From the NCBI RefSeq assembly GCF_011761565.1, contig NZ_JAASRM010000001.1, positions 2,790,139-2,854,138 of the forward strand: a stretch of 64,000 nucleotides of DNA, in the 5' to 3' direction. Below the pieces are notes generated by a model. That model made no database searches. It saw nothing but the letters and a program-made list of their open reading frames with translations, and had not been told where the DNA came from. This DNA comes from Rhizomicrobium palustre. GTDB taxonomy: Bacteria > Pseudomonadota > Alphaproteobacteria > Micropepsales > Micropepsaceae. Made by a program: the position numbers and the translations under genes. Shown here piece after piece: positions 3,372-32,526 of the stretch; within the stretch, counting starts at the first letter, position 1, and the number at the start of each line of letters is the position of its first letter.

Positions 3372-3446
3372 TGGTGCCGGAGGAGAGAATCGAACTCTCG
3401 ACCTACCCCTTACCAAGGGGTTGCGCTACCACTACGCTACTCCGGC
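3372..3446 (-). tRNA. tRNA-Thr (anticodon GGT)
   Basis: The minus strand folds into a full cloverleaf. The acceptor GCCGGAG (3440-3446) pairs with CTCCGGC (3376-3382), the anticodon stem is ACCCC/GGGGT with loop TTGGTAA, and the T arm is GAGAG-TTCGATT-CTCTC. The discriminator is A and the 3' CCA is encoded (3372-3374). The anticodon GGT reads ACC and ACU threonine codons. Confidence 0.97.
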
Positions 3447-3897
3447 ACTCGCGGGGCTTTGGGGCCCGGCCTTTCGGGCTTTCAGCCCGGAAGAGGCGCG
3501 TCTATATCCCATTGCGTGGCTTAAAGGAAAGGGTTCGTTTGTGCCTTCTTCATCGAAATCCCCAGAGAAACGCGAACGACTTGCCGCAGCCCTCAGGGAA
3601 AACCTGAAAAAGCGCAAAATCCAGGCCCGGGGCAGGGGCGAAAATTCTCCTTCGGGGGCGGATTCGGGGGCCCCCCAAGCCTCTGAAGGGGCAGCTGATT
3701 CGCCCGAATCGAAGGTGAGCTAGGGCGAGGGGCGGGGTTTCTCCCGTCTGGGTGGGGCGCAGGGGCTCTAACCTGCGAATCTCACCCCGATGCGCGATGC
3801 TTTGCCGGGGGGCCAAGATTGCGGCTGTTGGAAAAGCCGCCGCCGCGCTAAAAACGCCGCTTCGTTTCATTTTCAGTTCCGCGTTTGCCGAGGGGCT
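3447..3897. other. 451-bp intergenic region between tRNA-Thr and murA
   Basis: Holds the divergent promoters of tRNA-Thr and murA. The region is GC-rich, with G-runs and small hairpins such as CGGGCT-ttc-AGCCCG near 3472-3487. The overlapping open frames on both strands resemble no protein and are likely chance. An upstream in-frame ATG for murA at 3790 would add 36 low-complexity basic residues and is not favoured. Confidence 0.4.
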
Positions 3898-5178: not shown

Positions 5179-5621
5179 CGAACACGCTTCTCACCCTGGC
5201 CGCGGAAGATGCCGAGGATCTCGAAATCCTCTCTGCAAGGCTGCAGGATGCCGTCGGCAAGGTCGGCGACTTCAAATTCCTGCCCAAAGCGCGCCGCTTT
5301 GTGGCGGTGCTCAACCGTTTCCAGTGGGAGAACGGCAAGAAAGGCGATCAGCGCGTCCGCGCGGGTCTGCATTTTGACAATGTGCTGAACGTCCGCTCCA
5401 AGAACATCAAGATGGGCGCGCCGGGTGCGATCCTGTCTTTGCTCGCGATCCGCTTTACCCCCGGTGGGGCGGCCGATAGCGAAAATCCGGCGGGGCTCGT
5501 TGAGCTTGTCTTTTCCGGCGGCGGCGTAATCGCATTGGATGTGGAGTGCATTTCGGCGGGGCTCGCCGATGTCTCCGGTCCTTGGGCGGCGCGCGGGCGT
5601 CCCTCCCACGAAGAGGGGTGA
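5175..5621 (+). CDS. DUF2948 family protein
   Basis: A 148-residue cytoplasmic protein of the DUF2948 family, recognised from its N-terminus ([20 protein letters not shown]) and its invariant position between murA and hisD in Alphaproteobacteria. It overlaps murA by 4 bases and ends 2 bases before hisD, so it is translationally coupled to both. No catalytic motif is visible and no function is established for the family. Conserved linkage suggests a housekeeping role, but that is inference. Confidence 0.88.
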
Positions 5622-5623
5622 TC

Positions 5624-6919: not shown

Positions 6920-7391
6920 AAACGGCAATTTCCACCTTGTCGGTATCCGCCTCCATCAAAAGGATGGGGATGCCTACAGTGCGGAAATTGCTCGGGAGCG
7001 CGAAATAGCCCTTTGCGATCTCGTGGAATGCAACAGCTTCAAGCCGCTTCTGTCGCCCGGTGGGCCTTACGAGCTTGATCTCGGCATTGAGGAAAACCGG
7101 CTGATCTTCAATCTGAAGCTGGCCGGCGGCGAGCATCACGGCACCTTCATCATGTCGTTGACCCCGCTTCGGCGGGTGATCAAGGACTACTTCGCTATCT
7201 GCGACAGCTACGACAACGCCATTGCCAAGTTGCCGCCGGACAAGCTGGAAGCCATCGATATGGCGCGGCGGGGCATCCACGACGAGGGTGCCTTCATCCT
7301 CCAGGAGCGGCTCTCGAGCAAAATCTGCGTCGATGGCGATACGGCGAGGCGCCTTTTCACCCTCATTTGTGTGCTGCATTTGAAGGGCTAG
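6912..7391 (+). CDS. UPF0262 family protein
   Basis: A 159-residue soluble protein matching the UPF0262 family, which sits directly after hisD in many Alphaproteobacteria. The N-terminal half (FHLVGIRLHQKDGDAY) and central PYELDLGIEENRLIFNLKL block are characteristic. It overlaps hisD by 8 bases, so it is translationally coupled. No catalytic residues or membrane segments are evident and the function is unknown. Confidence 0.87.
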   Translation: MTENGNFHLVGIRLHQKDGDAYSAEIAREREIALCDLVECNSFKPLLSPGGPYELDLGIEENRLIFNLKLAGGEHHGTFIMSLTPLRRVIKDYFAICDSYDNAIAKLPPDKLEAIDMARRGIHDEGAFILQERLSSKICVDGDTARRLFTLICVLHLKG

Positions 7392-7542
7392 GGCCCCGAA
7401 AACCGCTCAAGCTAGGCAAAATTGCGGCCAATGGCGGTTGTAAGCCGCTTTGCCGGTGGATGGGACCCTGCAAACCCTTGCTTTTGGCCGGTTTCGGTGC
7501 ATTCTCCCGCCCGATTTTCCCCTTAAAAGCCCAAGAGGCCTG

Positions 7543-7761
7543 ATGCCCAAAGAAGAATTGCTCGAATTTGAAGGCGTAGTCAGTGAACTTCTGCCCAACG
7601 CGACCTTTCGCGTGACGCTGCAGAACGGACACGAGATTATCGCTCATACCGCTGGCAAGATGCGCAAGAACCGCATTCGCGTGCTGACGGGCGATAAGGT
7701 CATGGTGGAAATGACACCTTATGATCTCACCAAAGGGCGTATCACCTATCGCTTCAAATAA
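7543..7761 (+). CDS. infA: translation initiation factor IF-1
   Basis: A 72-residue single OB-fold protein that binds the ribosomal A site during initiation. The sequence is a near-textbook IF-1: [55 protein letters not shown]. The ATG at 7543 gives exactly the family length. The 151-base gap before it must carry its promoter. Its 3' end overlaps the maf-like gene by 41 bases. Confidence 0.97.
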
Positions 7762-8362
7762 CCAAAGCGGGCGCCTCGGCCTCGTTTTGGCAAGCGAGAG
7801 CCCGCGCCGGAAGGCCTTGTTGGGCCAGGCCGGCATCGTCCCCGACCTCATTCGCGCCGCCAATCTTGATGAGACACCCCTAAAGGGTGAGCTGCCGCGC
7901 AGCTATGCCTTAAGGCTTGCCACCGAGAAGGCGGCTAGTGTCGCCGCCAAGCAGCGCGAGCTTTATCCCGCAGGTCCCGCTCTTGTTCTCGGTGCCGATA
8001 CGGTTGTGGCAGCGGGACGGCGAATCCTTCCCAAACCCGATGACGCAGAGGGGGTACGCGCCTGCCTGTCACTTTTGTCGGGCCGGCAGCATCAGGTGAT
8101 GACCGCGGTGGCGGTGGTTCTGCCCGATGGCGTGGTCCGTACCCGCGTGGCGGTGACACGAGTTGCGTTCAAAAGATTATTGCCCGCCGAAATCCAGGCC
8201 TATGTCGATTGTCGCGAAGGCCAGGGCAAGGCTGGCGGCTATGCCATCCAGGGGCGGGCTGAGGTATTCGTGCGCCAGATCAACGGTTCCTATTCCAATG
8301 TGGTAGGACTGCCGCTTTATGAAACCGTGCAGATGCTGCGCGGTGCTGGCTACGGAGGCTGA
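7721..8362 (+). CDS. maf: Maf-family nucleotide pyrophosphatase
   Basis: Hydrolyses non-canonical or methylated nucleoside triphosphates to monophosphates (house-cleaning) and can affect septum formation. It has 213 residues. The Maf signature [11 protein letters not shown] begins at about residue 24 and LGADTVV carries the catalytic aspartate. The only plausible upstream start in this frame is the ATG at 7721, which lies inside infA; the next start-like codon (TTG at 7787) would cut into the signature. The long overlap with infA implies coupled translation. Which of the Maf/YceF substrate classes it belongs to cannot be told by eye. Confidence 0.9.
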
Positions 8363-8363
8363 G

Positions 8364-9032
8364 ATGGAGCTTTTTCGCGAAAGCCCCTTCCTCAACACAT
8401 TCTTGCTTGTTTACGCGGCGTTGTTCCCGATCATCAATCCGGTCGGCAACGCACCTTTGCTGCTTGGGCTGACGCGTGGCATCAGCGAAGCAGAGCGGCG
8501 TATTGTGGTCCGCCGTATCTCCATCAATAGCTTCTTCCTGCTGTTGGGATCGATGGTGATCGGCTCGCATATTCTCGAATTTTTTGGGCTCAGCCTTTCC
8601 ATTGTGCGTGTCGGTGGCGGCATCGTGGTCGCCGCTTTCGGCTGGGAACTTCTGAATTCCGGCAGTTCCGCCGATGACCGCGCCGCGGCCCATAGCCCCA
8701 AGCCGCGCGCGGCTCTCGATGCATTCTACCCTCTTACCATGCCGATGACCGTGGGGCCGGGCGCCATGTCCGTCGCTATCGCGCTGGGCTCGCAGCGCCC
8801 CGCCATTCTGGATGCAGCCCATCTCATCGCCCTCGCCACGGCCGCCTTCACCGGCATCCTCGCGGTCTCGTTGACGATTTATCTTTGCTATCGCTATGGC
8901 GAGAAGATCGTGGCTTCGCTGGGTTCGAACGGCGTCGCCGTGCTGACCCGGCTCTCGGCCTTCATCCTCTTCTGCATCGGCTTGCAGATCATCTGGATGG
9001 GCTGGCACGGGCTGATTGGGCATACGCCCTAG
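8364..9032 (+). CDS. MarC family (UPF0056) integral membrane protein
   Basis: Inner-membrane protein of 222 residues with about six hydrophobic segments. It begins LFRESPFLNTFLLVYAALF and has the family's conserved FPIINPVGNAPLLL block and a second half beginning PLTMPMTVGPGAMSVAIAL. The start at 8364 follows the maf stop (8360-8362) by one base. MarC was named for multiple antibiotic resistance, but that role was later disproved and the substrate is unknown. Confidence 0.88.
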   Translation: MELFRESPFLNTFLLVYAALFPIINPVGNAPLLLGLTRGISEAERRIVVRRISINSFFLLLGSMVIGSHILEFFGLSLSIVRVGGGIVVAAFGWELLNSGSSADDRAAAHSPKPRAALDAFYPLTMPMTVGPGAMSVAIALGSQRPAILDAAHLIALATAAFTGILAVSLTIYLCYRYGEKIVASLGSNGVAVLTRLSAFILFCIGLQIIWMGWHGLIGHTP

Positions 9033-9210
9033 TAATCCCGCGCACCCCGCGTCTATTTGCGCAAATTGCCAGACTGCCCAGAAAATCTCGCGATGGTAGA
9101 GCCTTGGGGGAGCCTGCTCGACGCACCATGCGAGCGCCGCGACCGTAAGGAGACATCGCTGTGCCCCCCAACCCCTTGCGCTGATCGCCGAAGGCTCCTA
9201 ACCACAATTC

Positions 9211-10671
9211 ATGGCCCAAGAAATCCGCATCAATGTGAGCGCGGGCGAGGTCCGGGTGGCTGTTGTCGAAGACGGCCGGCTGGAAGCGCTTAGCTGTACC
9301 AGGCTCCTTGGCACGGAAGAGAGCGCCGGTCATGTCGGCGACATCGTGCTTGGCCGCGTCGTGCGGGTGGTTCCTGCGGTGCAGGCCGCCTTTGTCGAGA
9401 TCGGGCGGGACCGCGCCGGTTTCCTGGGGGCGCGTGAAGCTCGTTGCCTAGCTCCGGCGGAGGGGGAGGTTGAGCTTTCCATCAGCCAGATCCTGCGCGA
9501 GGGCGACAAGGTTCTGGTACAGATTGTCAAAGACCCGATTGGTGATAAAGGCGCACGGCTTACGGCGAATGTCACTATTCCGGGGCGGCTTTGCGTTTTC
9601 ACGCCCTTGCAGCCCGGCGTTGGGATTTCGCGCAGGATCGAGGATGAGGCCGAACGCCTTCGGCTTGCCGAGATTGGCGAGGCGCTCTTTGCCAGCGAGT
9701 TCAAAGGCGGCTGTATCCTGCGCACAGCCGCCGTAGGCGCCAGCGAAGAAGATTTGCGTGAAGACCTTTTGCGGCTGGAAGAAGAGTGGGGCGAGATTTC
9801 TGCAGCGCGCAAAAGCGCCGGCGTGCCCTCCACCTTGCGCCGCGATTTAGGCCCCATCGAGCGGGCGCTGCGCGACATCGTGCATGACACGACCTCATCG
9901 ATCCTGATCGACAACGCGGTGGCGGCGGAAAAAGCACGCGCCTATTGCCGCGAGGCGATGCCGGGGGTGGAAGGCCGCATTGCTGTTTATAACGACAGCC
10001 TGCCGCTTTTTGCCGATCTCGAAAGCGACATCGATGGCTTGATCCTGCCGCGCGTGCCGCTCAAATGCGGCGGCTGGCTGACGGTGGAAGGGACCGAGGC
10101 GCTGACGGCGATCGACGTGAATTCCGGAAGCTTCACTCATTCTTCCGCCGTGGAAGACACAGGTCTCGCCGTCAATCTGGAAGCCGCGGCAGAGATTGGC
10201 CGCCAGCTTCGCTTGCGCGGGGTGGGCGGGTTGATCGTGATCGACTTCATCCATATGCGCGAGCCCTCGCATTATGAGCGCGTTCTGGCGGCGCTGGGCC
10301 AAAGCCTCGCTCGTGATGGCGTGCCAGTGAATATCGGCAAGGTGACCGATTTCGGCCTTGTGGAAGTGACCCGCAAGCGGGTGCGCGAATCCCTGGTCCA
10401 GCTTTGGAGTGAGGATTGTGGCACTTGCCATGGGCTTGGCATTACGCGCCGTCCCGAAGCAGTGGCGATGGATCTTATCCGCCGGGTAGAGGAAACCGCA
10501 CGCGTTGCGCCGGGCAAACCCATCCTCGTAACCGCGGCACCCTCTGTGATTGCGTGGCTTCTGGTCCATGAAGCTATGGATGCGCTTTCGCGTGCAGGAA
10601 TTGGTCGAATCAGTTTGGAGGAAGATGCCCGCTACCCGCGGGAAAGATTCGAGGTCGGAACCCGTGGCTGA
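9211..10671 (+). CDS. rng: ribonuclease G/E family endoribonuclease
   Basis: Mg-dependent endoribonuclease that cleaves single-stranded AU-rich RNA and matures rRNA ends. At 486 residues it is RNase G-sized and lacks the long RNase E scaffold. An S1-like RNA-binding region lies near residues 35-120 ([16 protein letters not shown]). The DNase I-like catalytic core is [13 protein letters not shown] plus [10 protein letters not shown]. The zinc-link motif is CGTCHG. It begins after a 178-base gap in which I see no gene and ends overlapping yacG by 8 bases, a common alphaproteobacterial pairing. Confidence 0.94.
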
Positions 10672-18888: not shown

Positions 18889-18912
18889 AGAATGGTGCCC
18901 AGGGGCGAAATC
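18889..18912. repeat. att-like direct repeat, distal copy of the tRNA-Phe 3' end
   Basis: The 19 bases AGAATGGTGCCCAGGGGCG (18889-18907) are identical to 20034-20052, where they form the CCA and 3' acceptor end of tRNA-Phe. One mismatch and then AATC extend the match to 24 bases. This is the arrangement left by integrase-mediated insertion at the 3' end of a tRNA gene. Confidence 0.75.
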
Positions 18913-20037: not shown

Positions 20038-20468
<431 letters not shown>

Positions 20469-22187
20469 ATGCGATTTACGCGCTGCCTGCTGGCTGCGGG
20501 CCCGGCCTTCATTGCTTGTGCTGTTTCATCAATTGCCGCCGAGGTGCCCTCTCAGGTTGCACCTGGTGCTGTCGAGCGGACGCTGCAGCAAAAGCTCCCA
20601 ACCGCCCATGAAGACCGTATCCAGATCCCCGCGCCGTCCGGTTTTGATACGCCGCAAGGCGCGGAGAAGGTGCATTTCACCCTTAGCCGAATCGATCTCA
20701 GCGGGAATACGGCGGTGCCAAGCAGCCGCTTGGCTTCCGCCTATGCCGGGTTGATCGGCAAGGATGTCTCGCTGGCCGACGTCTTCGCCGTGGCGCGCAA
20801 GATCACCGACCAGTACCGCGAGGCGGGGTATGCGCTGAGTTTCGCCCTGGTCCCCGCGCAAGAGCTCGATCCGGCGACCGGCGCGGTCCGGATCGATGTG
20901 GTGGAAGGCTATATCGCCGAGATCCGCTTCGAAGGCGCACACAATAAGCTGCCCTCGGTCGTTACCGCCATGGGAGAGCGCATCAAGCAGTCCCATCCGT
21001 TGAAGACGGCGGATTTGGAAAAATACCTCCTGCTGATGAATGACGTGCCCGGCTTTGCGGTTTCTGGTGTGTTTGATCGCATCCCCGACGCGCCCAAGGG
21101 CGCCACGCGGCTGGTGGTGAAGACGAGCCAGCAGAGCTGGACGGCGAGCGCGTCGATCGACAATCGCGGCTCGAGTGCTTTCGGTCCCTGGCAGAGTTCG
21201 ATCACCGCGGCCGCTTATGATCTGATCGGGCAGGGTGAAGACGTTTCGCTGCACGGCATTCGCGCCCTGAACGGCAAGCAGCTTTCGGCCGTGGTTGGTC
21301 AGATGTCCTTTCCGATCAGCGACAATGGCACGCGCCTGTCCTTCAACGGCATCTGGTCTGATGCTCATCCCGGTTCGCCGACGCTGTCGGCGATCAACTT
21401 CGGGTCGAGCGGTTGGACCTATGGTGCAAGCCTGAATTACCCGCTGCTGCGTTCGCGCCTTGAAAGCCTGTGGCTGCGCACCGGCGTTACGGGCAAGCTT
21501 CTGAAATCACAGTTTCTCGCCACGCCGCATTCGCGTGACCGCATTTATGAATGGAATTTGGGCGCCACCTGGAACAAGCGTGACGAAACCGGCGTGACGA
21601 CGGGAGATATCACCTTCACCCAAGGATTGCCTTTGGGTGATGTCTCCGATGTGACCGACGCTCTGCGCAGCCGCAGCACTGGCAGCGCGATCTTTTCCTC
21701 AGTGGAAGCAACTATCACCCGCCTGCAATCCGTGCTCGACACCAAATACGGCGCCCTCGATCTTTATGGCGCGGCGCAAGGCCAAGTGGCCTCGCGTGGT
21801 CTGCTGTCGTCCGAGCAATGCGGCTATGGCGGCGCAGTGTTCGGCAAAGCCTATGACTCCAACGAAATGGTCGGCGATTTTTGCGCGCTGGGCGCTTTGG
21901 AAGCCCGCGTCACTCCGGCAAGCGTATTTTTGCCCTTCCCGAAAGTCCTCACCGGCGCGCAATTCTTCGCCTCTGTGGATTTCGGCTATACGTCGAACAC
22001 CGGAAAGCTCGGCTTCGGCGATAAGACGAAAGACACCGCTTCGTCGGTTGGCGCGGGCCTGCGCTTCAGCCTGTTCCAGCGTGTGAACGGTAGCGTGGAA
22101 TACGACCTGCCGATCAGCCGCAAGGTGGCCTTGGAAGGCAACAGCGACGGGCGCGTGTTCTTCCAGCTCTCCATTTCCGCAAATTGA
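20469..22187 (+). CDS. two-partner secretion outer-membrane transporter (TpsB, ShlB/FhaC/HecB family)
   Basis: Omp85-superfamily barrel that exports the adjacent TpsA protein across the outer membrane. It has 572 residues from the ATG at 20469. The signal peptide (about 1-24) ends SSIAAEV. A POTRA-2-type domain at about 65-140 contains VHFTLSRIDLSGNTAV and ITDQYREAGYALSFALVPAQ. A second POTRA region (VVEGYIAEIRFEGA) and the barrel follow, including the family's ASIDNRGSSAFG strand. An ATG at 20436 is an alternative but would spoil the signal peptide. It is 61 bases upstream of tpsA, with a 16-bp palindrome between. Confidence 0.93.
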   Translation: MRFTRCLLAAGPAFIACAVSSIAAEVPSQVAPGAVERTLQQKLPTAHEDRIQIPAPSGFDTPQGAEKVHFTLSRIDLSGNTAVPSSRLASAYAGLIGKDVSLADVFAVARKITDQYREAGYALSFALVPAQELDPATGAVRIDVVEGYIAEIRFEGAHNKLPSVVTAMGERIKQSHPLKTADLEKYLLLMNDVPGFAVSGVFDRIPDAPKGATRLVVKTSQQSWTASASIDNRGSSAFGPWQSSITAAAYDLIGQGEDVSLHGIRALNGKQLSAVVGQMSFPISDNGTRLSFNGIWSDAHPGSPTLSAINFGSSGWTYGASLNYPLLRSRLESLWLRTGVTGKLLKSQFLATPHSRDRIYEWNLGATWNKRDETGVTTGDITFTQGLPLGDVSDVTDALRSRSTGSAIFSSVEATITRLQSVLDTKYGALDLYGAAQGQVASRGLLSSEQCGYGGAVFGKAYDSNEMVGDFCALGALEARVTPASVFLPFPKVLTGAQFFASVDFGYTSNTGKLGFGDKTKDTASSVGAGLRFSLFQRVNGSVEYDLPISRKVALEGNSDGRVFFQLSISAN

Positions 22188-22248: not shown

Positions 22249-25200
22249 ATGCAGCGCAGTTTTTTCACCAATAAGTTAAAGGTCACTGTCGCGCTTTCGG
22301 CATTGTTTGTCGGCTATCCCGCATGGGCCAACCCCACCGGGGGAACGGTCGTAGGCGGCCAGGCCGTTATCTCCACACCAAGCTCCAACCAGTTAAATGT
22401 CAATCAGTCGACCAAGGTCGTGATCATCGACTGGAAGAAGTTCGACATCGCCAAGGGCGAAACCACGACCTTCATTCAGCCCGATGCCTCTGCGCTTGCC
22501 GTCAACCGCATCGGTGGGGCCGATCCGGCCAAGATCCTTGGCAACCTCATGGCCAACGGCAAGGTTATCCTGATTGACGGCAACGGCTTCATGTTCGGGC
22601 CCAATGCCAAGGTCAATGTCGGTGCGCTTGTCGCCACCACCTCGGATGCTTCCAATGCCGACATCATGTCGGGCAAGGCCAAATTCGATAAGCCGGGCAG
22701 CGCCAACGGTCAGATCATCAACTACGGCCAGATCACCGCGAATAGCGGCATGGTCGGGCTGGTGGCACCTTCGGTCACCAATAACGGCGTGATCCGCGCC
22801 AAGCTGGGGCAGGTGGCGCTCGGCGCGTCCAATGTCTTCACATTGGACTTCACCGGCGATGGCCTGATCTCCTTCCCGGTCGATCCCAATGTGATTGCTG
22901 CCGCGATTGATGCGAACGGCCAGCCGGTGAAGGCGCTTGTGGCCAATAACGGCCACATCGAGGCCTCCAGCGTGGTGCTTTCGGCGCGGGCTGCTGCGGC
23001 GCTCGTCACCAATGTGATTTCGGTGAAGGGTGAGATCGTTGCCCAGACCATTTCGCATAAGGGCGGCAAGATCATCCTGGATTCGGGTGTCGGCGCCGTC
23101 GCGCTGGAAGGTGCCAAGCTTGATGCCTCGGGCGCGAATGGCGGCGGCAGCATCTCGGTCGCGAGCGTCAACGCATCGCGGGTCACTGCAGACGCGGCCA
23201 CGGTTTTGGATGCCTCCGCGACCAGCCAAGGCGACGGCGGCAGCATTGTGCTGAATTCGCTGAACACCAAATTCTACGGCACCGCCAGCGCAAAGGGCGG
23301 CAGCATCTCGGGTAATGGCGGCAAGATCGATACCTCGGGCCATGTCCTCGATGTGGCTGGGGCGAAAATCTCCACCGTCGCGCCGCATGGCAAGACCGGC
23401 GAATGGCTGATCGATCCGTACAACATCATCATTTCGAACGATGCCAGCACCGGTTCGGGCTATACCGCCACTGCTAACGATACGGTCATCAACGCCGACC
23501 AGATTTTGGACGCGCTGAAGAACAACAGCGTCTCTATCACCACGGGGGCGTCGAATGCCCCAGGTTCGCAAGCGGGCGATATCACGATTTCGACGGGGCT
23601 GAGCTGGAATAGCAGCAACACGCTGACCCTCGCGGCTGCCAACAGCATCAATGTCAACGCGCCGATCAGCTTGGCCAGCGGCGGCCTCAGCCTGACGGGC
23701 AAACATCTGAACTTTGCCGATAATGTAACCGTCTCGGGCGCGGGCTCCGTCGTCCTAACGGGGAGTGACTACACTTTTCTGGGAGGGCATTCGCTTAGCT
23801 TCACGGGTGGCAAGAACTCGGGAGCAACGCTGGCCATCAACGGTACGTCTTTCACGCTGCTTTATGGCTTCGACGACATTCAGGCGATAAGCTCCCCTGG
23901 CAAGTTGAGCGGTGCATACGCTCTCGCCAATTCGCTGGACGCGTCTTCCCTCACCACTTGGACGTCGATTGGTGACAGCTATAACGATTTGCCATTCGCC
24001 GGCATTTTCGAGGGCTTGGGACACACCGTCTCCAACCTTAGCTATACAGCAACGAAAAACACGACCGGCTTCTTTGGCTACACCTCGGGTGCGACCATTC
24101 GGGATTTCGGCCTGATTGATGGTGCCATTACCAGCGGGAACATCAACGCGGTGGGGCCGCTCGTGGGCACCGCCGAAAGCAGCCAGTTGCAGAACGTTTT
24201 TGCGAGCACCAGTGTCACCGGGACCGGCCAGTATGTCGGTGGTCTCGTCGGCAGCATCAGCGGTGATTCCAACATCATCAACGCGGCCGCATTCGGCGAT
24301 ATCACCGGTGGGCAAGATGTTGGTGGGTTGGTTGGGACGATATATGGGGGCCAGATTCTGAATGCCTATGCCACGGGCAGCGTCAAAGGCGGGCAGAATG
24401 CTGGCGGGCTTATTGGACACGCGGTTTCCAACAGCAACGCCACTTATATCGAAAATACCTATGCAAGCGGTGCCGTCTCCGGTGACGGGGTGTCTGGCGG
24501 CCTCATCGGGCGCGTAGACAATTTCTGTTCCACCTGCATCGATCAGACGACAATTTCCAATTCATATTGGAATACGGATACAGCCAACGTGACCGAGAGC
24601 ATCGGCTCCGGAACCTATACAGGTAATGTATTTGGTGTTCCCACGAGCGTTCTGCAATCCGGCCCTGCCGGTCTCAATGCTTTGCCGTGGAACATCAAAT
24701 CCGGGGCCAATCCCTATCTCAGCTTCCTGGTGTTACCGCAGACCACCATCTCCGGCACGGTCTATTCCGACCACGGTAAGACCACTCTTTCTGGCGTGAA
24801 GGTCTATGAGGTCCTGCTGGGCGGTTCCACCATCGTGGCGAATGCCACCAGCGGCAATGATGGCGCCTATTCAGTTGCGGCGCCGCAATCGAACGGCACT
24901 GCATTGTTGTTCCTGGATGGCGGCAGCGTCTTCGCCAATACGGTGGCGGAATACACGGGTTCCAGCCTTTCCGGCGTGAACCTCTATGGCGGCTATCTCA
25001 CCTTCTTCAATACTTCCTCTGTAACGGTCACCTCTGCCCTTGACTCGCTGAAGAGCTTCATGAAGCCGGATGGCTTCTCCACCGGCGACTTCCTGTTTTC
25101 GCCATGGGGCGATGTTATCGTACCGACGGCTGGCCTTGATATCACCGCGAGTAGAAATCTTTCCGCCGATAGGGCGTTCAGCTTCGTCGGCACGAATGGA

Positions 25201-28200
25201 CTTTACCTCACCGCAGGCGACGCGCTGTCGATTGACGCGCCGCTGACGGTTGAGAATGGCGCGCTCAATTTAACCGCCTATACGATGTCGTCGATGGCGA
25301 ACCTCACGGCGTCAGGTGCCGCGGCTGTTTCACTTAATGTGGCCGTTCCCGCGAGCACGGTGTTTGGCGGTGGAACATCGCTCAGCTTCACCGGCGGCAA
25401 GAGCTCCGGTGCAACGCTGACCATTAACAATTCGCGCTACACGCTGCTCTATGACTTCGACGACATTCAGGCGATAAACTCCCCCAGTAAGTTGGACGGC
25501 GCGTACGCCCTCGCCAACTCGCTGGATGCATCCTCACTCACAAGCTGGAAGCCCATCGGCAACGCCGCGAATTCCTTCAGTGGCGTTTTCGAGGGCTTGG
25601 GTCATACCGTTTCCAACCTCAGCTATACGGTTGCGGGCTCGATGTCCGGCTTCTTCGGGACCGTAAGAAACGGCATCATTCGTGATTTCGGTTTGGTCGG
25701 CGGAACGATTACGGTTGCGAATGGCAACTCCGATATCGGCCCGTTGGCAGGCGAAGTCGCAAATTCTTTGATATTGAATGTCTACTCCTCCACGGACGTC
25801 AAAGGAAACGGCTGGTATGTGGGGGGGCTGATCGGCTTCCTCGACGCGGGTTCACGTCTTTACGGCGGCGCTGCGCATGGCAATGTCACCGGCGAGCAAA
25901 ACGTCGGCGGTTTTGCCGGCGGGATTTACGAGGCTGCGGTAGGCAATGCCTATGCCACTGGCGATGTCTCTGCCTCGTATAGGGCAGGCGGTTTTGCCGG
26001 CGAGGTGAGTAGATATCAAGGCAGCGTCGCCGTCTCTAACGTTTATGCGAGCGGTGCTGTCTCCGCGACAGACTATAAAGGCGGACTGTTCGCAAATGTC
26101 GCCGAAATGTGCGCGCCTGCCTGTACAAATGTCGGGATCTATTTCTCGAACGCCTATTGGACCACGGATACCACGGGCGTCACCAATGGCATGACAGGAA
26201 AAGGCACGTATAGCGGCACGCTAACCGGCGTCACCACGGCACAATTGCGGGCCGCCGGTCTCGACGGTATGCAACCACCCGGCTGGGTTTATAAGGACGG
26301 GTTTAATCCTTATCTGCGTTTTGAGACTGCGCCCGCCAAGACCATCTCCGGCACGGTCTATTCCGACCACGGTAAGACCACACTCGCAAACGCGAATGTT
26401 TACGAACTGACGCTGGGGGATTCCTCGGTGGTGGCCAACGCCACCAGCGGCACCAATGGTACGTATTCGCTGGTCGCGCCAGATTCAAACGGCTCGGTGC
26501 TGCTGTTCTTGGATGGTGGAAGCGTTTTTGCCAACACCGTGGCGGAATACAAGGGCGCCAGCCTGTCTGGCGTGAACCTCTATGGCGGCTATCTCACCTT
26601 CTACAATACCTCTTCGGTCACGGTGGCCGCCGCGCTCAACACGCTGGCCGGTGCCGTGACGCCGAATGGCGTATCCGCACGTGATTTCCTCTTCAGTTCT
26701 TCCGGAAATAACGTGGCGCCCATGGCGGGACTCGACATCACCGCCACTGGCGACTTTTCGCTGGACGCCACGCTGAACTTCGCAGGTAGCAATGGCCTTT
26801 ACTTGAATGTGGCCGGGAATTTCTCCAGCCAAGAGTTGAGCGCCCTGAGTATCGTCGATGGCGCACTGAACATTTCCGCCAAAAATATCGCTATTGGTTC
26901 CAATGTGACGGTGACCGGCGGCGGTATGGTCCAACTCAACACGGCACAGTCGGGGGATTATCAATTCCTCAATGGGCATTCGTTGCAGTTTACCGGCGGC
27001 AAGGATGCAGGGGCGTCGCTTTCGATCAATGGTACTGCGTACACGCTTCTATATTCCTTCGACGATCTCCAGGCGATCAATGCCACCTCGAATTCGCGTG
27101 GTGGAACTTACGCTTTGGCGAAGTCCCTTGATGGGCATTCCTTCAACGGCTGGACCCCAATCGGCGGGAGTAATGGCGGATTCAACGGAGTCTTCACTGG
27201 CCTGGGCAATACGGTTTCTAACCTTAGCTATGGCGTGACGTCAGTAAATGCGGGCTTCTTCGGCTATGTCGGCAATGGCGTGATCCGCGATTTCGGTGTT
27301 CTAGGTGGAACGATTTCTGGCTCGGCAGATTTTGTTGGCGGTGTGGTCGGCTACGCATGGAAGGCGACGCTTAAGAACGTCTACTCCACAGCCTCAATAA
27401 CAGCAGATGGATCGTATCATGGCGGGCTGATCGGCTTTGCCGACACCTCCACCATAACCAACGCTTCCGCACGTGGTTCAGTCTCTGGGGCATACGTAAT
27501 CGGTGGCCTTATTGGCACCCTTAATGAATCCACACTCATCAATGCCTATGCAACCGGGCCTGTCACAGCAAGCAAGGACACTATCGGTGGATTGATTGGC
27601 AATGTTGGGGCGTATTTCGGTTCAACCACGATCTCGAACGTTTATGCCTCTGGCCCCGTTACCGCCCCTTCATCGGCGCAGAATGTCGGGGGACTTCTCG
27701 GGATTGGCTATGGCTTCGGGACAAAGATCCTGACCAATGCCTATTGGAATAGCGAAACGTCCGGCACGCAGTTGGGGCTCGGCTCAACCGCCTCGGTCTA
27801 CACTGGCGCCGCAGCAGGCCTGACGACGGCTCAATTGCGCCAAGGTCCCCAGGGCTTTGATCCAAGCGTTTGGGTCTTTAGCAACACCGCCAATCCGCGC
27901 TTGATCATTGAAAACCCGATACCGACGATTTCCGGCACGGTTTATACCTCGCGTGGTGGCAACGCGCTCTCCGGCGCCGATGTTTACGAAATTCTGATTG
28001 GCAACTCGTCGGTCGCCGGGACGGCCAAGAGCGGCACGGATGGCTCCTATTCGCTTTTTGCGCCTTCGTCCAATGGAGCGGTCCTGCTGTTCCTTGACGG
28101 GGGCAATGTTTTTGCGAATGCGGTGGTGGACTATAAGGGCCAAAGCTTATCGGCCATTGATCTCTTCGGTGGGTATCTGAGTTTCTACAATACCTCGGCG

Positions 28201-31200
28201 GTCACGGTTTCGGCCGCGCTCAACACGCTGTCGAGCTTTGTGCGGCCAGACAACTTTGCCGCTGGCGATTTCCTTTTCAATATTTCCGGGTCCAGCGTAA
28301 TGCCCACGGCGTCGCTGGATATCACCGCGGCGGGGCCGCTGACCATCGATCAAGCGCTGACCTTCACCGGCACAAATGCGGGGTATTTCACTGCCGGTAA
28401 TGGCGACATCACCGTCGCCAACGCCATCAATCTCGATAGCGGTCGCCTTATCCTGAACGCGACCGGTGCAATCGCGGTTAACGCCAAGGTCTCGGCCTCC
28501 GGTGCAGCGACAGTTTCGATGGTTGCCGGCACAAAGGCCGGAACTCTGCCGTGGCAAACGCTTACAGAGATCAGCTATGGGGTCGGCGGCGGCCTTGATT
28601 TTGGCAATACGGACAACGGGGCCAAGCTGTTCGTCAATCGGCAGGCCTACAAGCTCGTCTACTCGTTGGATCAACTGCAAGCGATCAACAGTGATCTTTC
28701 GGGCAGCTATGCCTTGGCGACGTCGCTGGACGGTTCCGCGCGTAAGAGCTGGACGCCGATCGGCAATGCCGCGAATAATTTTGCGGGCATCTTCGATGGC
28801 CTCGGCAATACTCTTTCTAATCTCAATTGGGATATGACGGGGGCTGATGAAGCTGGCCTGTTTGGTGTTGCTTCTGGCGTGTTGCGGAATATCGGGCTTG
28901 TCGGCGGCACGATGACCGGCAAGGGCGTGAACAATTTTGGTCCTCTCGCCGGACATTTGTCGGGCGTCGCCTATAACAGCTATTCGACTGTCAATGTTGT
29001 CGGTGATGGCTGTGATCTTTGCGGCGGTCTGATTGGTTATGTCGAATTGGGCAGCTTGGCTCAGAACGTCTTCGCCACGGGCAATGTCATCCTTAAGAAC
29101 GGCAGTGAGTCTTCGGCTGCGGGTGGCCTGGCCGGCTCGGTCGAAGGTGGGATCAGCAACGGCGAAGCTTTCGGCGCCGTTATTGGCGGCAGTCATGCTG
29201 GCAGCATTGCGGGCTATCTGCCTACCTCCGGCGTTCTCAACAATGTCGTTGGTCTTGGCTATGTGAAGGCGGATGGCGTTTCCGGCGGGCTGGCGGGCTC
29301 GGCCTACGGAACGATCACCAACGGCTATTTCGATAGCGACACAACGGGCATTTCCTACAATCGCGGGGTCGGCGAGGGGCAGACCACGACGGGCTTCATT
29401 GGCCTCGGCACATCATACCTGCAATCGAATATGCCCGACGGGCTCACTTCCCCTGATTGGGGCTTCAATCTGGGCGCGGCTTATCCCTATCTCGCCAGTT
29501 TCTTCCCGAACGGGGTACAGACGGTTAGCGGCAAGGTCTACGCCAATTCGGATCAAGACGCGGCGCCGGGCCTGCGGGTGGGCGCTCTCGCCAATGGCAA
29601 TAAGCTGGGCGAATCCGGCACGGGCTCAAATGGCTATTACTATATCTTCATGCCTGCCGGAACGCTCCAGAACGACAGCAACGTTCTTGCCTACCTCACG
29701 GGTGGGACGGTGCAAGCGAACACCTACCTCGTGAAAGGCGACGGCGCTTTGACGGACGCCAATCTCTATGTGGGTGATCTGCGCCTGATCTCGGGTGCGG
29801 CCAATCTTTCCACGATGTTTGATGGCTTGGCGTCGGCGCTGGGGAATATGAGCGGAGCCGATTACCTGTTCGCGGTGTCGAACGGAAAGGTGGCTCTTGG
29901 GTCTTCGACCAATCTCAATGTCTTGGAAACCGGCTTCAGCCTGAACATCGATCAGGCCATCACCACCACGGGCAATGTCGTTCTGAGCGCGGACGACGCA
30001 AGCGTGACGCAAAGTGAGGCGATCAAGGCAAATGCCTTGGTGCTGCGTGGGGTTAATACCAGCTTCACCTTGACCAACAGCGCCAATAACGTTTCCATTT
30101 TGGCGGATCGGCCCGTTTATGGTTCGTTGAGCTTCGTCAATAGCGGTGATCTGACCATCGGCACGGTGGCTGATGATAGCGGCCTGAGCGGGTTCCGCCT
30201 GATTTCGGTGAAGGCGGGCGGAAACCTCACGGTGGATGCGTCGGTGCAGGCCGCAGATGTGGTGTCGCTGCTCTCGGGCGGTGATCTCACAATCACTGAG
30301 AGTGGCTCTGTGTACAGCCGGAACAGCATCGTGTTATCGGCCGGCAAGGCTTTTGTGAATAACGGCGGCGCGACTGCGGTGACGTCGGAAGATGGCCGCT
30401 GGCTGATTTATTCGGCCGATCCCTCCAAAAACAGCTTTGGCGGTCTCGATAGCGGTAATACCGCGATTTGGAATGCCACTTACGATACCATGGCACCGGA
30501 AGGCATCGAGGCGAGCGGCAACCGTTATCTCTTCGTCAAGCAGCCGACGCTGACCATCACCACAACCGACCTTTCCAAGACCTATGGATCTAGTATCGGT
30601 TCGGCCTTGAGCGATGCCTATAAGATCGCAGGTTATGATGGGGGCCTTACGGGTGTGTATCTCGCCGATACGGCAGCCTCGGTGTTCAGCGGCACCCCCA
30701 TCATCAGCTCGTTGGGTGCGGGTGCTGGCGCGAAGGCTGGCAGCTACACTGTCAATGCCGCGCAAGGCAGCATCGTTCTTCTCAATGGCTATGCGCTGTC
30801 GGCGCAAAACAATGGCGTGCTAACCGTTGATCCCAAGGTGCTGACGGCCGCCTTGACCGGCGTGGTGACCAAAATCTACGACGGCACTACCGCAGCCTCG
30901 CTGATGAATGGCAATTACGTGCTTTCCGGCATCGTCGGCAGGGACGCGGTTTCGGTGGCCAACACGTCGGGCAGCTTTGCAGACAAGAATGCGGGCAGCG
31001 GCAAGACCATCACGGTTTCCGGGCTGACGCTTTCGGGCGCCGATGCGGGGAATTATGTGTTGAGCGTCACCTCCGTCAGCGGCGATATCGGTGCTATCAC
31101 GCCAGCAACGCTCAACGCCGCGCTCACGGGATCGGTGACGAAAGTCTACGATGCCACCACGCTGGCCGCGCTGGCCAATGGCAATTACGTCCTCACCGGC

Positions 31201-32232
31201 GTAATCGGCAAAGACATTGTGGTTCTCAACAATCCGGCCTCGGGAAGCTTCGACAGCAAGAATGTGGGGCAGGGTAAGACCATCACGGTTAATGGTCTGG
31301 CGCTTTCTGGGGAAGATGCCGGTAATTATGTTCTCGGAGCGACCACGATCTCCGGGGCCATTGGCGGCATCACGCCCGCAACCCTCAACGCGGTGCTTAC
31401 TGGCTCTGTCACCAAGGTATATGACGGCACCACGCTGGCGACCCTCGGCAAAGGCAATTACGTGTTGAGTGGTGTGATTGGCAGCGACGGTGTCGTGCTT
31501 AACGGCCCGGCGACCGGCAGCTTCGATACCAAGAACGTCGCGAACGGGAAGACCATCACGGTTACGGGCGTCTCAATCGCGGGTGTGGATGCCGCCAATT
31601 ACGTCCTGGCTGCCACCACGCTTTCGGGGGCATTGGGGGCGATCACGCCCGCCTCGCTGGTTCTGATCGCTAATGATGCGACCCGCCAGCAGGGCACGCC
31701 CAATCCGGGCTTTAGCTACTCTGTTTCGGGTTTGATGAGCGGCGATAATGCCTCTGTGGTCGGTGGCGTAACGGCGTCGACCTCAGCCGTTCAGGGCTCG
31801 CCCATGGGCAATTACGCGATCACCCTCTCGGGCGGCGAGGCCTCGAATTATGTGATTGTATCGCGCAAGGATGGGACGCTGGTGATCACTGCGCCTCCGG
31901 CCAATGGTGATGTTCCGGGCTACTACAATTCTGTGCCGGCGACGAACACCAATGCGAATGGCAGCGGTACAAGCAGCACCAGCGGCACAGCTCCTGGCCC
32001 TGTCGGCGCCAGCCCCTCGAGCGCGCCGCAGCAAGTTGTTCCGGGGCAAACCGGTGCTGGCGGATCGATCTTCTGTTCGGTCTCCAACGGCAGTTCTACG
32101 ACTGAAACCTGCAGCACGAATTCGGCGCGTAACGATGTGCGCGGGAAAACGAAGTATGCCGCAGAGATGAAACTGCAGCGCCGGACCGAAGCCGAAAAGC
32201 CCGTTTCCAAGAAGAACAATCGCAAGGCCTGA
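22249..32232 (+). CDS. giant two-partner secretion exoprotein (TpsA), filamentous-haemagglutinin-like, with GLUG and YDG repeats
   Basis: Secreted surface protein of 3327 residues, probably an adhesin or biofilm protein exported by the upstream TpsB. The signal peptide (about 1-25) ends GYPAWA. The TPS secretion domain (about 26-300) includes VVIIDWKKFDIAKGE, ALAVNRIGG and FMFGPNAKVNVGALVATTSD. GEWLIDPYNIIISND then leads into four modules of about 530 residues, each with SFTGGK, GLUG-type repeats (VGGLVG, NAYATGSV) and an ISGTVYSDHG-type segment ending in GGYLTFYNTSSVTV. Residues about 2760-3215 are MBG/YDG-type domains. Near the C-terminus Cys3276 and Cys3288 form a C-X11-C pair. The start at 22249 has AGAGGG upstream; the GTG at 22207 is inside the palindrome. 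The ligand is unknown. Confidence 0.92.
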   Translation: MQRSFFTNKLKVTVALSALFVGYPAWANPTGGTVVGGQAVISTPSSNQLNVNQSTKVVIIDWKKFDIAKGETTTFIQPDASALAVNRIGGADPAKILGNLMANGKVILIDGNGFMFGPNAKVNVGALVATTSDASNADIMSGKAKFDKPGSANGQIINYGQITANSGMVGLVAPSVTNNGVIRAKLGQVALGASNVFTLDFTGDGLISFPVDPNVIAAAIDANGQPVKALVANNGHIEASSVVLSARAAAALVTNVISVKGEIVAQTISHKGGKIILDSGVGAVALEGAKLDASGANGGGSISVASVNASRVTADAATVLDASATSQGDGGSIVLNSLNTKFYGTASAKGGSISGNGGKIDTSGHVLDVAGAKISTVAPHGKTGEWLIDPYNIIISNDASTGSGYTATANDTVINADQILDALKNNSVSITTGASNAPGSQAGDITISTGLSWNSSNTLTLAAANSINVNAPISLASGGLSLTGKHLNFADNVTVSGAGSVVLTGSDYTFLGGHSLSFTGGKNSGATLAINGTSFTLLYGFDDIQAISSPGKLSGAYALANSLDASSLTTWTSIGDSYNDLPFAGIFEGLGHTVSNLSYTATKNTTGFFGYTSGATIRDFGLIDGAITSGNINAVGPLVGTAESSQLQNVFASTSVTGTGQYVGGLVGSISGDSNIINAAAFGDITGGQDVGGLVGTIYGGQILNAYATGSVKGGQNAGGLIGHAVSNSNATYIENTYASGAVSGDGVSGGLIGRVDNFCSTCIDQTTISNSYWNTDTANVTESIGSGTYTGNVFGVPTSVLQSGPAGLNALPWNIKSGANPYLSFLVLPQTTISGTVYSDHGKTTLSGVKVYEVLLGGSTIVANATSGNDGAYSVAAPQSNGTALLFLDGGSVFANTVAEYTGSSLSGVNLYGGYLTFFNTSSVTVTSALDSLKSFMKPDGFSTGDFLFSPWGDVIVPTAGLDITASRNLSADRAFSFVGTNGLYLTAGDALSIDAPLTVENGALNLTAYTMSSMANLTASGAAAVSLNVAVPASTVFGGGTSLSFTGGKSSGATLTINNSRYTLLYDFDDIQAINSPSKLDGAYALANSLDASSLTSWKPIGNAANSFSGVFEGLGHTVSNLSYTVAGSMSGFFGTVRNGIIRDFGLVGGTITVANGNSDIGPLAGEVANSLILNVYSSTDVKGNGWYVGGLIGFLDAGSRLYGGAAHGNVTGEQNVGGFAGGIYEAAVGNAYATGDVSASYRAGGFAGEVSRYQGSVAVSNVYASGAVSATDYKGGLFANVAEMCAPACTNVGIYFSNAYWTTDTTGVTNGMTGKGTYSGTLTGVTTAQLRAAGLDGMQPPGWVYKDGFNPYLRFETAPAKTISGTVYSDHGKTTLANANVYELTLGDSSVVANATSGTNGTYSLVAPDSNGSVLLFLDGGSVFANTVAEYKGASLSGVNLYGGYLTFYNTSSVTVAAALNTLAGAVTPNGVSARDFLFSSSGNNVAPMAGLDITATGDFSLDATLNFAGSNGLYLNVAGNFSSQELSALSIVDGALNISAKNIAIGSNVTVTGGGMVQLNTAQSGDYQFLNGHSLQFTGGKDAGASLSINGTAYTLLYSFDDLQAINATSNSRGGTYALAKSLDGHSFNGWTPIGGSNGGFNGVFTGLGNTVSNLSYGVTSVNAGFFGYVGNGVIRDFGVLGGTISGSADFVGGVVGYAWKATLKNVYSTASITADGSYHGGLIGFADTSTITNASARGSVSGAYVIGGLIGTLNESTLINAYATGPVTASKDTIGGLIGNVGAYFGSTTISNVYASGPVTAPSSAQNVGGLLGIGYGFGTKILTNAYWNSETSGTQLGLGSTASVYTGAAAGLTTAQLRQGPQGFDPSVWVFSNTANPRLIIENPIPTISGTVYTSRGGNALSGADVYEILIGNSSVAGTAKSGTDGSYSLFAPSSNGAVLLFLDGGNVFANAVVDYKGQSLSAIDLFGGYLSFYNTSAVTVSAALNTLSSFVRPDNFAAGDFLFNISGSSVMPTASLDITAAGPLTIDQALTFTGTNAGYFTAGNGDITVANAINLDSGRLILNATGAIAVNAKVSASGAATVSMVAGTKAGTLPWQTLTEISYGVGGGLDFGNTDNGAKLFVNRQAYKLVYSLDQLQAINSDLSGSYALATSLDGSARKSWTPIGNAANNFAGIFDGLGNTLSNLNWDMTGADEAGLFGVASGVLRNIGLVGGTMTGKGVNNFGPLAGHLSGVAYNSYSTVNVVGDGCDLCGGLIGYVELGSLAQNVFATGNVILKNGSESSAAGGLAGSVEGGISNGEAFGAVIGGSHAGSIAGYLPTSGVLNNVVGLGYVKADGVSGGLAGSAYGTITNGYFDSDTTGISYNRGVGEGQTTTGFIGLGTSYLQSNMPDGLTSPDWGFNLGAAYPYLASFFPNGVQTVSGKVYANSDQDAAPGLRVGALANGNKLGESGTGSNGYYYIFMPAGTLQNDSNVLAYLTGGTVQANTYLVKGDGALTDANLYVGDLRLISGAANLSTMFDGLASALGNMSGADYLFAVSNGKVALGSSTNLNVLETGFSLNIDQAITTTGNVVLSADDASVTQSEAIKANALVLRGVNTSFTLTNSANNVSILADRPVYGSLSFVNSGDLTIGTVADDSGLSGFRLISVKAGGNLTVDASVQAADVVSLLSGGDLTITESGSVYSRNSIVLSAGKAFVNNGGATAVTSEDGRWLIYSADPSKNSFGGLDSGNTAIWNATYDTMAPEGIEASGNRYLFVKQPTLTITTTDLSKTYGSSIGSALSDAYKIAGYDGGLTGVYLADTAASVFSGTPIISSLGAGAGAKAGSYTVNAAQGSIVLLNGYALSAQNNGVLTVDPKVLTAALTGVVTKIYDGTTAASLMNGNYVLSGIVGRDAVSVANTSGSFADKNAGSGKTITVSGLTLSGADAGNYVLSVTSVSGDIGAITPATLNAALTGSVTKVYDATTLAALANGNYVLTGVIGKDIVVLNNPASGSFDSKNVGQGKTITVNGLALSGEDAGNYVLGATTISGAIGGITPATLNAVLTGSVTKVYDGTTLATLGKGNYVLSGVIGSDGVVLNGPATGSFDTKNVANGKTITVTGVSIAGVDAANYVLAATTLSGALGAITPASLVLIANDATRQQGTPNPGFSYSVSGLMSGDNASVVGGVTASTSAVQGSPMGNYAITLSGGEASNYVIVSRKDGTLVITAPPANGDVPGYYNSVPATNTNANGSGTSSTSGTAPGPVGASPSSAPQQVVPGQTGAGGSIFCSVSNGSSTTETCSTNSARNDVRGKTKYAAEMKLQRRTEAEKPVSKKNNRKA
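23796..29580 (+). repeat. four tandem ~1.6-kb modules within tpsA
   Basis: The segment encoding SFTGGK...LLY...FDDIQAI recurs at about 23796, 25381, 26983 and 28591, a period of 1585-1608 bases. The segment encoding ISGTVYSDHG or relatives recurs at about 24750, 26346, 27929 and 29523. The first three copies are closest and the fourth has diverged most. Copies 1 and 2 share 41 identical bases (24745-24785 and 26341-26381). Confidence 0.85.
30838..31650 (+). repeat. three tandem 270-bp YDG-domain repeats in tpsA
   Basis: Each 90-residue unit reads LTGSVTKVYDGTT, then GNYVLSGVIG, GSFDTKNVANGKTITV and ANYVLAATT. Units begin near 30838, 31108 and 31378, and MBG-like domains lie on either side. 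YDG repeats are known from large secreted haemagglutinin-like proteins and probably form beta-rich stalk segments. Confidence 0.85.
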
Positions 32233-32254: not shown

Positions 32255-32287
32255 GCGCCATCCCTCACAGGATGGCGCATTTTTTTA
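32255..32287 (+). terminator. rho-independent terminator after tpsA
   Basis: GCGCCATCC (32255-32263) pairs with GGATGGCGC (32270-32278) across a 6-base loop and is followed by ATTTTTTTA. It ends the tpsBA transcript and also lies beyond the end of mop, which converges on it. Confidence 0.92.
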
Positions 32288-32319: not shown

Positions 32320-32526
32320 CTATTTGGCGACCAGCACGTCGGAGGCTTTGATAATGGCAACAGCGTCATCGCCCGCCGCGAGGCCAAGATCGTCCACGGC
32401 TTCATTGGTAACGGAAGCGGTAACAACCACGCCGCCGCCGATATCGATACGGACATGGGCTGTAGTCTGCCCCTTGGTCACATCGATCACCTTGCCTTTG
32501 AATTGATTTCTTGCACTGAGCTTCAT
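32320..32526 (-). CDS. mop: Mop-type molybdenum-pterin/molybdate-binding protein (molbindin)
   Basis: A 68-residue single Mop (TOBE-type) domain: MKLSARNQFKGKV at the start, then VTKGQTTAHVRID, GGGVVVTASVTNEAVDDLGL and AVAIIKASDVLVA. Such proteins assemble into hexamers that bind molybdate in the cytoplasm and buffer Mo supply. The ATG at 32526 is preferred over 32535 because GGAAGGG then sits at usable spacing. It lies just outside nifA at the edge of the nitrogenase island, so a role in Mo supply for FeMo-co is likely by context. Confidence 0.9.
   Translation of the reverse strand: MKLSARNQFKGKVIDVTKGQTTAHVRIDIGGGVVVTASVTNEAVDDLGLAAGDDAVAIIKASDVLVAK

Follow-up and report, generated by a model that had tools for sequence, protein, structure and literature searches.

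A giant modular TpsA of Rhizomicrobium palustre, probably a surface-retained adhesin, and its transporter with a cysteine pair in the L6 loop

Results

The tpsBA locus

The 64,000-nucleotide stretch of the Rhizomicrobium palustre genome analyzed here (the window, in whose coordinates positions are given) carries tpsB and, 61 bp downstream on the same strand, tpsA, which encodes a giant exoprotein (Table 1). By Pfam, the tpsB product is an outer membrane transporter of the ShlB/FhaC/HecB type with a POTRA_2 domain, and its true start is likely the ATG at 20469, which has AGGGGG ahead of it. The tpsA open reading frame (ORF) runs from ATG 22249 to the stop at 32232 without an internal stop, in a frame open from a GTG at 22207, and its GC contents of 0.536, 0.514 and 0.693 at codon positions 1, 2 and 3 are as in a coding frame. 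Because tpsB lies directly upstream and a terminator-like hairpin follows tpsA, the two genes likely form a two-gene operon, tpsBA, ended by this hairpin; the region has 20 terminator-like sites where shuffles give 17, and the stem of this one is the longest.

A first-pass annotation had described a 3327-residue TpsA with a two-partner secretion (TPS) domain, four modules of about 530 residues that mix GLUG motifs with an ISGTVYSD-type (ISG) segment, three YDG domains, and a C-X11-C near the end, all of which were confirmed by ORF analysis, Pfam and self-comparison. To this description the present work adds an MBG_2 domain, cysteine pairs within modules 1, 2 and 4, an adjoining tpsB with cysteines in its L6 loop, and a basic tail of 39 residues.

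Table 1. Features of the tpsBA locus in window coordinates. Residues are those of TpsA; pLDDT, predicted local distance difference test; pTM, predicted template modeling score; pI, isoelectric point.
Feature	Position	Strand	Basis or remark
tpsB	20436..22187	+	Pfam POTRA_2 4.9e-19, ShlB 3.2e-14
TpsB L6-loop segment, first to second Cys (C-X20-C), around VRGY/F-equivalent tip (GKAY)	21819..21884	+	
tpsA, 3327-residue exoprotein	22249..32232	+	ORF and Pfam
Signal peptide, conventional, ...PAWA/NPTGG junction	22249..22329	+	read by eye from translation
TPS secretion domain, residues 28-279	22330..23085	+	PF05860 4e-26
Module 1, residues 507-1035: GLUG beta-helix, transthyretin-like domain, short beta-helix	23767..25353	+	self-comparison
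CX2C 760/763, last GLUG turns of module 1	24526..24537	+	
Transthyretin/CpD-like domain of module 1 (ISGTVYSD...)	24745..25014	+	extent by analogy with module 2
Module 2, residues 1036-1568; structure predicted	25354..26952	+	AlphaFold2 pLDDT 84, pTM 0.66
CX3C 1288/1292, matching place in module 2	26110..26124	+	
Transthyretin/CpD-like domain of module 2	26341..26610	+	AlphaFold2 model pLDDT 86, pTM 0.84
Module 3, residues 1569-2105	26953..28563	+	self-comparison
Transthyretin/CpD-like domain of module 3	27925..28194	+	extent by analogy with module 2
Module 4, residues 2106-2605, most divergent; BLASTP counterpart of the ortholog's single module	28564..30063	+	
CX2C 2255/2258, another GLUG turn of module 4	29011..29022	+	
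Transthyretin/CpD-like domain of module 4	29521..29790	+	extent by analogy with module 2
Three YDG domains, about residues 2862-3123	30832..31617	+	PF18657 5.3e-49, 3 stretches
MBG_2 domain, residues 3139-3211	31663..31881	+	PF18676 5.5e-16
C-terminal pair Cys3276-X11-Cys3288, proposed hook	32074..32112	+	
39-residue tail behind C-terminal pair	32113..32229	+	residues 3290-3327 pI 10.7, strongly basic
Intrinsic terminator-like hairpin	32255..32278	+	consensus match; 9 pairs, 7 G-C, T run

The TPS domain is of the HMW/HxuA/EtpA type

Two marks of two-partner secretion are present at the locus, namely a TPS domain behind the signal peptide and an adjoining TpsB. The TPS region of TpsA also matches adhes_NPXG (2.4e-18), and in a PDB sequence search its nearest solved relatives were the TPS domains of EtpA (8cpk, 1.5e-44), HxuA (2.6e-27) and HMW1 (2odl, 2.9e-20); none of the 7 matches at E ≤ 0.01 was an FHA or HpmA chain. 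The NPNL motif of the FHA/HpmA family is absent from TpsA, as it is described to be from HMW1, HxuA and EtpA (PMC10284417). Judged by sequence, the TPS domain is of the HMW/HxuA/EtpA type and not of the FHA type.

Paired cysteines and the C-terminal hook

Mature TpsA has only eight cysteines, all in close pairs, and an arrangement in which each lies within 12 residues of another arose once in 2,000,000 random placements. Type 5 secreted proteins are described as generally having few cysteines, set a few residues apart so that the loops do not hinder translocation (PMC8151025), and the pairs within the modules fit this rule by their spacing. The fourth pair lies close to the C-terminus.

Pairs in this position recur in other TpsA-type proteins. 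Among 39 TpsA-type ORFs with a closed 3' end, at least 900 residues and at least one module, ISG, TPS, YDG or MBG match, 12 have at least two cysteines in their last 60 residues, against 0.24% expected per ORF if cysteines fell by a Poisson process at the rate seen elsewhere than in the tails; this set leaves out repeats of the same last 200 residues, ORFs with an open 3' end, short ORFs (L047, 757 residues; L059, 783; L139, 565) and loci L066-L129. A larger set of 50 adds ORFs by a TPS-like pattern and omits repeats of the last 100 residues; a TPS domain is not visible in every ORF of the two sets, and L130, L131, L139 and L182 have ends interrupted at a contig edge or by masked bases. Here a C-terminal pair with a spacing of X5 to X11 was found in 13 of the 50 closed ORFs, rows that are not fully independent (L037, L039 and L044 are all Rhizobium, and L148 and L149 have one common tail). 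The first-pass annotation had likened the pair to the HMW1-type anchor, and this recurrence, together with a pair at the end of the ortholog described below, speaks for that comparison.

A second kind of C-terminus was also seen. Six of the 50 ORFs (L142, L175, L178, L179, L187 and L189) end in WGNxxLW followed by Q, QW or RW, with SSWGNEALW in five cases, and none of the six has a cysteine pair. L217 ends in the same way, and L041, L188 and L213 in a similar FGNxxLWQ. A TPR-CHAT protein (PF12770, 1e-57) adjoins the L187 TpsA, and L179 and L189 hold ORFs whose ends are similar in sequence, as judged by eye. Perhaps these ends mark a second C-terminal class of TpsA tied to CHAT proteases.

A cysteine pair in the L6 loop of a TpsB clade

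The transporter carries a cysteine pair of its own. In the alignment, its L6 stretch reads SEQC GYGGAVF GKAY DSNEMVGDF C, an assignment to L6 that rests on the alignment, where L053 has a literal VRGY in the same columns, and on the partner motif given below. Both cysteines are present in four of 41 aligned TpsBs (that of the window, L170 in genome G034, L171 in G004 and L196 in G043) and in none of the other 37. The three relatives are the nearest TpsBs found, at 39-42% identity to the window TpsB, and the four form one clade (support 100/100), so the pair counts as a single origin, kept over considerable divergence. The loci of this comparison lie outside the 50-ORF set, and its one closed long TpsA (L217) is without a C-terminal pair. 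In other Omp85 proteins the partner motif of L6 is described as [FG]xDxG (PMC5422565), and in three of the four TpsBs this motif lies about 25-35 residues past the second cysteine, as FGDAG, FYDAG and FADMG. At the loop tip, the three clade mates read GR[GA]F and many other TpsBs GRGY or GRGF. Outside the L6 region, the POTRA part of the window TpsB matches TpsB4 and CdiB (6wim, over residues 68-274) in PDB sequence searches. A plasmid search with TpsB returned 23 records, all under 60% identity.

The L6 pair of this clade is a new observation of the present analysis. The natural disulfide described in a TpsB joins the H1-POTRA1 linker to POTRA1 and not L6 (PMC4490367, PMC7644211), and a natural L6 pair is not described in the part of the L6 disulfide literature consulted, which is no claim of its absence from print. 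An intraloop disulfide across the L6 hairpin is the simplest reading, and the most likely one, because the cysteines flank the loop tip at similar distances (7 and 9 residues).

Modules, stalk and predicted folds

The four modules recur at a spacing of 528-536 residues, with anchor motifs at 537, 1066, 1600 and 2136 and ISG/VSG motifs at 834, 1366, 1894 and 2426; identity to module 1 falls from 53% in module 2 to 47% in module 3 and 35% in module 4. Pfam marks GLUG in five stretches of TpsA. For the YDG domains of the stalk, Pfam coordinates were given for the best stretch only (2862-2941), and the motifs of the three domains stand at 2875, 2965 and 3056. N-glycosylation sequons are not enriched in TpsA (48, against 49.5 in shuffles).

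AlphaFold2 models were built for module 2 from 18 module sequences and for the ISG segment alone from 24. The first ~300 residues of the module 2 model resemble 3n6z (Z 31.7 over 286 residues, 3.2 Å; the first unrelated row has Z 15.9), and the GLUG part matches 7jgj by sequence profile (E 6.3e-8); a PDB profile search with the modules returned IgA1 proteases only (five sequences at E ≤ 1). By prediction, the GLUG part of the modules has the fold of the GLUG beta-helix found in M26/IgA1 proteases, to which 3n6z is alike in fold and 7jgj and 6xja in both sequence and fold, although no protease domain was found in TpsA, where GLUG would be scaffold.

The first ~95 residues of the ISG model resemble sandwiches of the transthyretin/carboxypeptidase-regulatory/CNA-B type, such as 3e8v (Z 8.3 over 80 residues, 2.2 Å), with many others at Z 6-8, values that are middling and in which rows within one Z unit are ties. 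Foldseek gave no match to this model at E 0.001, and Pfam matches of the segment stay under the curated cut-offs (CarboxypepD_reg 7.7e-4, 20.2 bits against 32.3; CarbopepD_reg_2 likewise below). The likeness to 3e8v, CpD and the SdrD B domains is one of predicted fold. By prediction, each module consists of a GLUG beta-helix and a transthyretin/carboxypeptidase-regulatory-like sandwich, which bears out, as a prediction from model and fold comparison, the earlier suggestion that the ISGTVYSD segment has a carboxypeptidase-regulatory-like fold.

Module distribution, repeat history and the ortholog L170

The further claim that this segment is unusual within TpsA proteins was too strong, for about ten alphaproteobacterial genomes, that of R. 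palustre included, have large ORFs with GLUG in which the GLUG+ISG module recurs, sometimes in tandem. Matches to module 2 were found in 19 of 120 genomes of relatives, and 17 of 385 genomes sampled from the class gave module-profile matches (both counts include the own genome); many of these matches cover the GLUG part only. In addition, 11 matches in a named collection came from Alphaproteobacteria, metagenome-assembled genomes of Hyphomicrobiales and Rhizobiaceae, Rhizobium and Thioclava. The ISG domain was seen in L035, L036, L038, L040, L041, L048 (five copies), L049, L062, L065, L130, L137 and L170, part of these matches being weak; with the window protein these make up the ten or so genomes. 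A TPS domain was detected in only part of the ISG-bearing ORFs, several of which end at contig ends. None of the 35 records from a plasmid search with the module covered 80% of the query, and no paper in the literature collection searched mentions both two-partner secretion and GLUG.

In a tree of 19 modules, window modules 1-3 form one clade (100/100), next to which module 4 branches (90/95); another group joins the two L049 modules to four of the five from L048 (100/100). This suggests that modules 1-3 were amplified within the protein and that repeats have multiplied within lineages. The same tree counters a simple amplification story, since the L170 module does not join window module 4 and falls without resolution among the other 14 rows.

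L170 is the ortholog in a congener and adjoins the nearest TpsB found. Its tpsA frame (2571-10034, minus strand, on G034:C281) is 49% identical to TpsA over query residues 6-430 and 33% from window module 4 onward (BLASTP). It has one ISG domain, eleven MBG_2 domains and a weak M26_N (GLUG-type) match below cut-off; its GLUG part aligns to TpsA by BLASTP and lies under the module-profile threshold. A long GGTTGGTTGG-type linker stands between its N-terminal beta-helix and the single module. The protein ends in a CX8C pair. Between TpsA and L170, to go by their alignment, the number of modules and the type of stalk vary and both ends are kept.

Genome context

The R. palustre genome, a single 4.26-Mb contig, holds one further TPS-domain protein, in a 4297-residue open frame at L046 3621-16511 (C1 about 2558620-2571510), which is without module-profile matches and without cysteines near its end. 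Pfam also finds four Thioredoxin_4 matches in this genome, a family that we take to be DsbA-like; they speak for the reading proposed in the Discussion.

On the tpsB side of the operon lies a tRNA-Phe gene (20038-20113, minus strand). Its 3'-terminal 15 bases (20038-20052) are repeated exactly at 18893-18907, 1.1 kb off, giving two matches in the window against 0.04 expected (at most one mismatch), perhaps as the remnant of an integration site beside tpsB. On the tpsA side, a 68-residue TOBE/molbindin-like gene (32320-32526, minus strand; PF03459 7.9e-18) stands between tpsA and a nifA-like gene. The latter belongs to a nitrogen-fixation cluster (32778-56118) in which, among the part of the ORFs of the stretch that was scanned, we found the nifA-like regulator, nifQ, a class-V (NifS-type) aminotransferase, an ADP-ribosylglycohydrolase that is perhaps DraG, nifH, two nitrogenase-component ORFs and a pyruvate:ferredoxin oxidoreductase. 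Exact sigma-54-like sites occur within this cluster at 35141 and 42379. Control of tpsBA by NifA and sigma-54 was considered and rejected, as the window has 10 such sites against 6.2 expected and none upstream of tpsB.

Discussion

We consider it probable that tpsBA is a two-partner secretion operon for a giant surface-retained adhesin of the HMW/HxuA/EtpA type, whose C-terminus would plug TpsB and whose transporter probably has a disulfide-stapled L6 loop. The defining mark of the HMW subfamily is described as a disulfide at the C-terminus by which the protein is anchored (PMC4873976; see also PMC5422565, PMC3297439); in HxuA, for example, replacement of both C855 and C861 gave more efficient release (PMC4873976), and CdrA of Pseudomonas aeruginosa is described with a putative cysteine hook (PMC11898600). 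Because HMW-subfamily proteins are anchored in this way and the TPS domain of TpsA is of the HMW type, retention by a loop in the periplasm or lodged in the pore is the best reading of the C-terminal pair.

In such a scheme, TpsA would be exported by Sec, and its TPS domain would then bind the POTRA domains of TpsB. Once threaded out, the protein would fold up as a rod carried on a YDG/MBG stalk, with GLUG beta-helix and transthyretin-like units alternating four times along it. The small disulfide loops within the modules (2-3 residues) could pass the pore, and a Cys3276-Cys3288 loop formed in the periplasm would be unable to pass it and would hold TpsA on TpsB. The repeated modules may lengthen the reach of TpsA and multiply its binding sites for surfaces, matrix or neighboring cells, and the L6 disulfide would hold the lid loop of TpsB in shape.

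Several observations weigh against parts of this proposal. The HMW-type anchor is not general, as 37 of the 50 closed TpsA-type ORFs lack the C-terminal pair, although a few of the 37 have masked or frame-broken ends. In addition, TpsA has 39 residues behind its pair and L170 only 5; a Pro-, Gly- and Ser-rich linker precedes the pair, unlike the helix proposed for HxuA; and the C-terminal tails of TpsA and L170 align only weakly, 14 of 500 shuffles doing as well, so that the case for homologous hooks is one of position and context and not of sequence. At the N-terminus, TpsA lacks NPNG, the equivalent place reading IDGNGFMFGPN (DGNG) in TpsA and NGNG in L170; since the TPS profile is still over its cut-off, we take DGNG to be a variant motif and no ground to doubt the family. 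As for TpsB, the window protein reads SVDFG at the [FG]xDxG place, and its loop tip GKAY departs from VRGY/F, with Lys for Arg and Ala for Gly. Finally, within the clade with L6 cysteines only two TpsAs have a visible C-terminus, for the L196 TpsA runs off a contig end and no TpsA was found beside L171.

A released, soluble exoprotein of the FHA or EtpA kind, with C-terminal cysteines that play no part in anchoring, would agree with the many ORFs that lack the pair and with a TPS domain closest to that of EtpA, which is described as a secreted adhesin (PMC10284417). We regard it as unlikely, given that the ortholog L170 also ends in a cysteine pair and that such pairs recur far above chance.

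Slightly less probable still is a protease-regulated adhesin like CdrA or LapA, in which the hook would hold TpsA until a LapG-type periplasmic protease cuts it, shedding the protein at low cyclic di-GMP. The genome does hold two Peptidase_C93 matches over cut-off (C1 109898-110365 and 2970280-2970744), a family that we take to be that of LapG, but both lie more than 100 kb from tpsBA. The [TAP]AAG motif, presumably that of LapG-type cleavage, occurs in TpsA only at 1854 and 2026, within the modules, and nowhere near the C-terminus. A search for LapD domains was empty and, its controls also being silent, uninformative. The pairing of a putative cysteine hook with LapG cleavage is itself on record for CdrA (PMC11898600).

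It is tempting to speculate that the two cysteine pairs meet. The oxidized, stapled L6 loop would then be a redox-gated lid, and the arriving hook of TpsA would swap disulfides with the L6 pair, leaving TpsA plugging the pore and covalently tethered, as opposed to a non-covalent plug. Both TpsAs of the clade with a visible end (window and L170) have the hook, and hooks also occur beside TpsBs without L6 cysteines (L039, L134 and L135); we hold such a mixed disulfide to be improbable. Delivery of a toxin, as in CdiA-like contact-dependent inhibition, would suit the size of TpsA and the CdiB match of TpsB, but we reject it as very improbable, since past MBG_2 there are only a low-complexity linker and the basic tail, where Pfam shows no domain at E 0.1, and the stop codon is followed by the terminator-like hairpin, the TOBE gene on the other strand and the nifA-like gene, with no evident immunity gene.

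Comparison with known systems sets the proposed surface-retained adhesin in context. With HMW1 and HxuA of Haemophilus influenzae, TpsA has in common an HMW-type TPS domain, the absence of NPNL, a TpsB partner and a cysteine pair near the C-terminus. HxuA has 884 residues, whereas TpsA is nearly four times longer, with GLUG and transthyretin-like modules and a YDG/MBG stalk; the HxuA pair is spaced X5 (855/861), that of TpsA X11 with a basic tail behind it, and the partner of TpsA also has the L6 pair. The HMW1C glycosyltransferase (PF18254) was not found among the ten neighboring ORFs scanned, and a genome search for it was empty with controls also silent. EtpA of enterotoxigenic Escherichia coli, which has the closest solved TPS domain, is likewise described with four long repeats, of 228 residues each (PMC10284417); those of TpsA are about 530 residues long and of different domains, and the main text of that paper has neither the word cysteine nor disulfide. 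In the CdrA/CdrB system with LapG of P. aeruginosa, CdrA is described as a TpsA adhesin built of 81-residue repeats and putatively hooked to TpsB by cysteines (PMC11898600), and in the TpsA of R. palustre no C-terminal LapG-type site was seen.

Overall, an ordinary principle of secretion, two-partner secretion with probable HMW-type anchoring, is met at this locus in an uncommon design, which pairs a giant GLUG/transthyretin-like rod, apparently self-amplified, with a transporter from a clade whose lid loop has cysteines. Cell anchoring of the HMW/HxuA type, known from pathogens in the papers cited above, would thereby be extended to an environmental nitrogen fixer, and TpsA seems to lengthen by copying a large two-fold module. 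The L6 pair offers a natural handle on the conserved lid of Omp85 transporters, a loop whose function in FhaC was called obscure in a 2017 review (PMC5422565). Should the two cysteines be bonded to each other, comparing secretion in the presence and absence of the bond would test directly whether L6 must move. Or, if the pair bonds with TpsA, it would be a new way of holding a protein on the cell surface.

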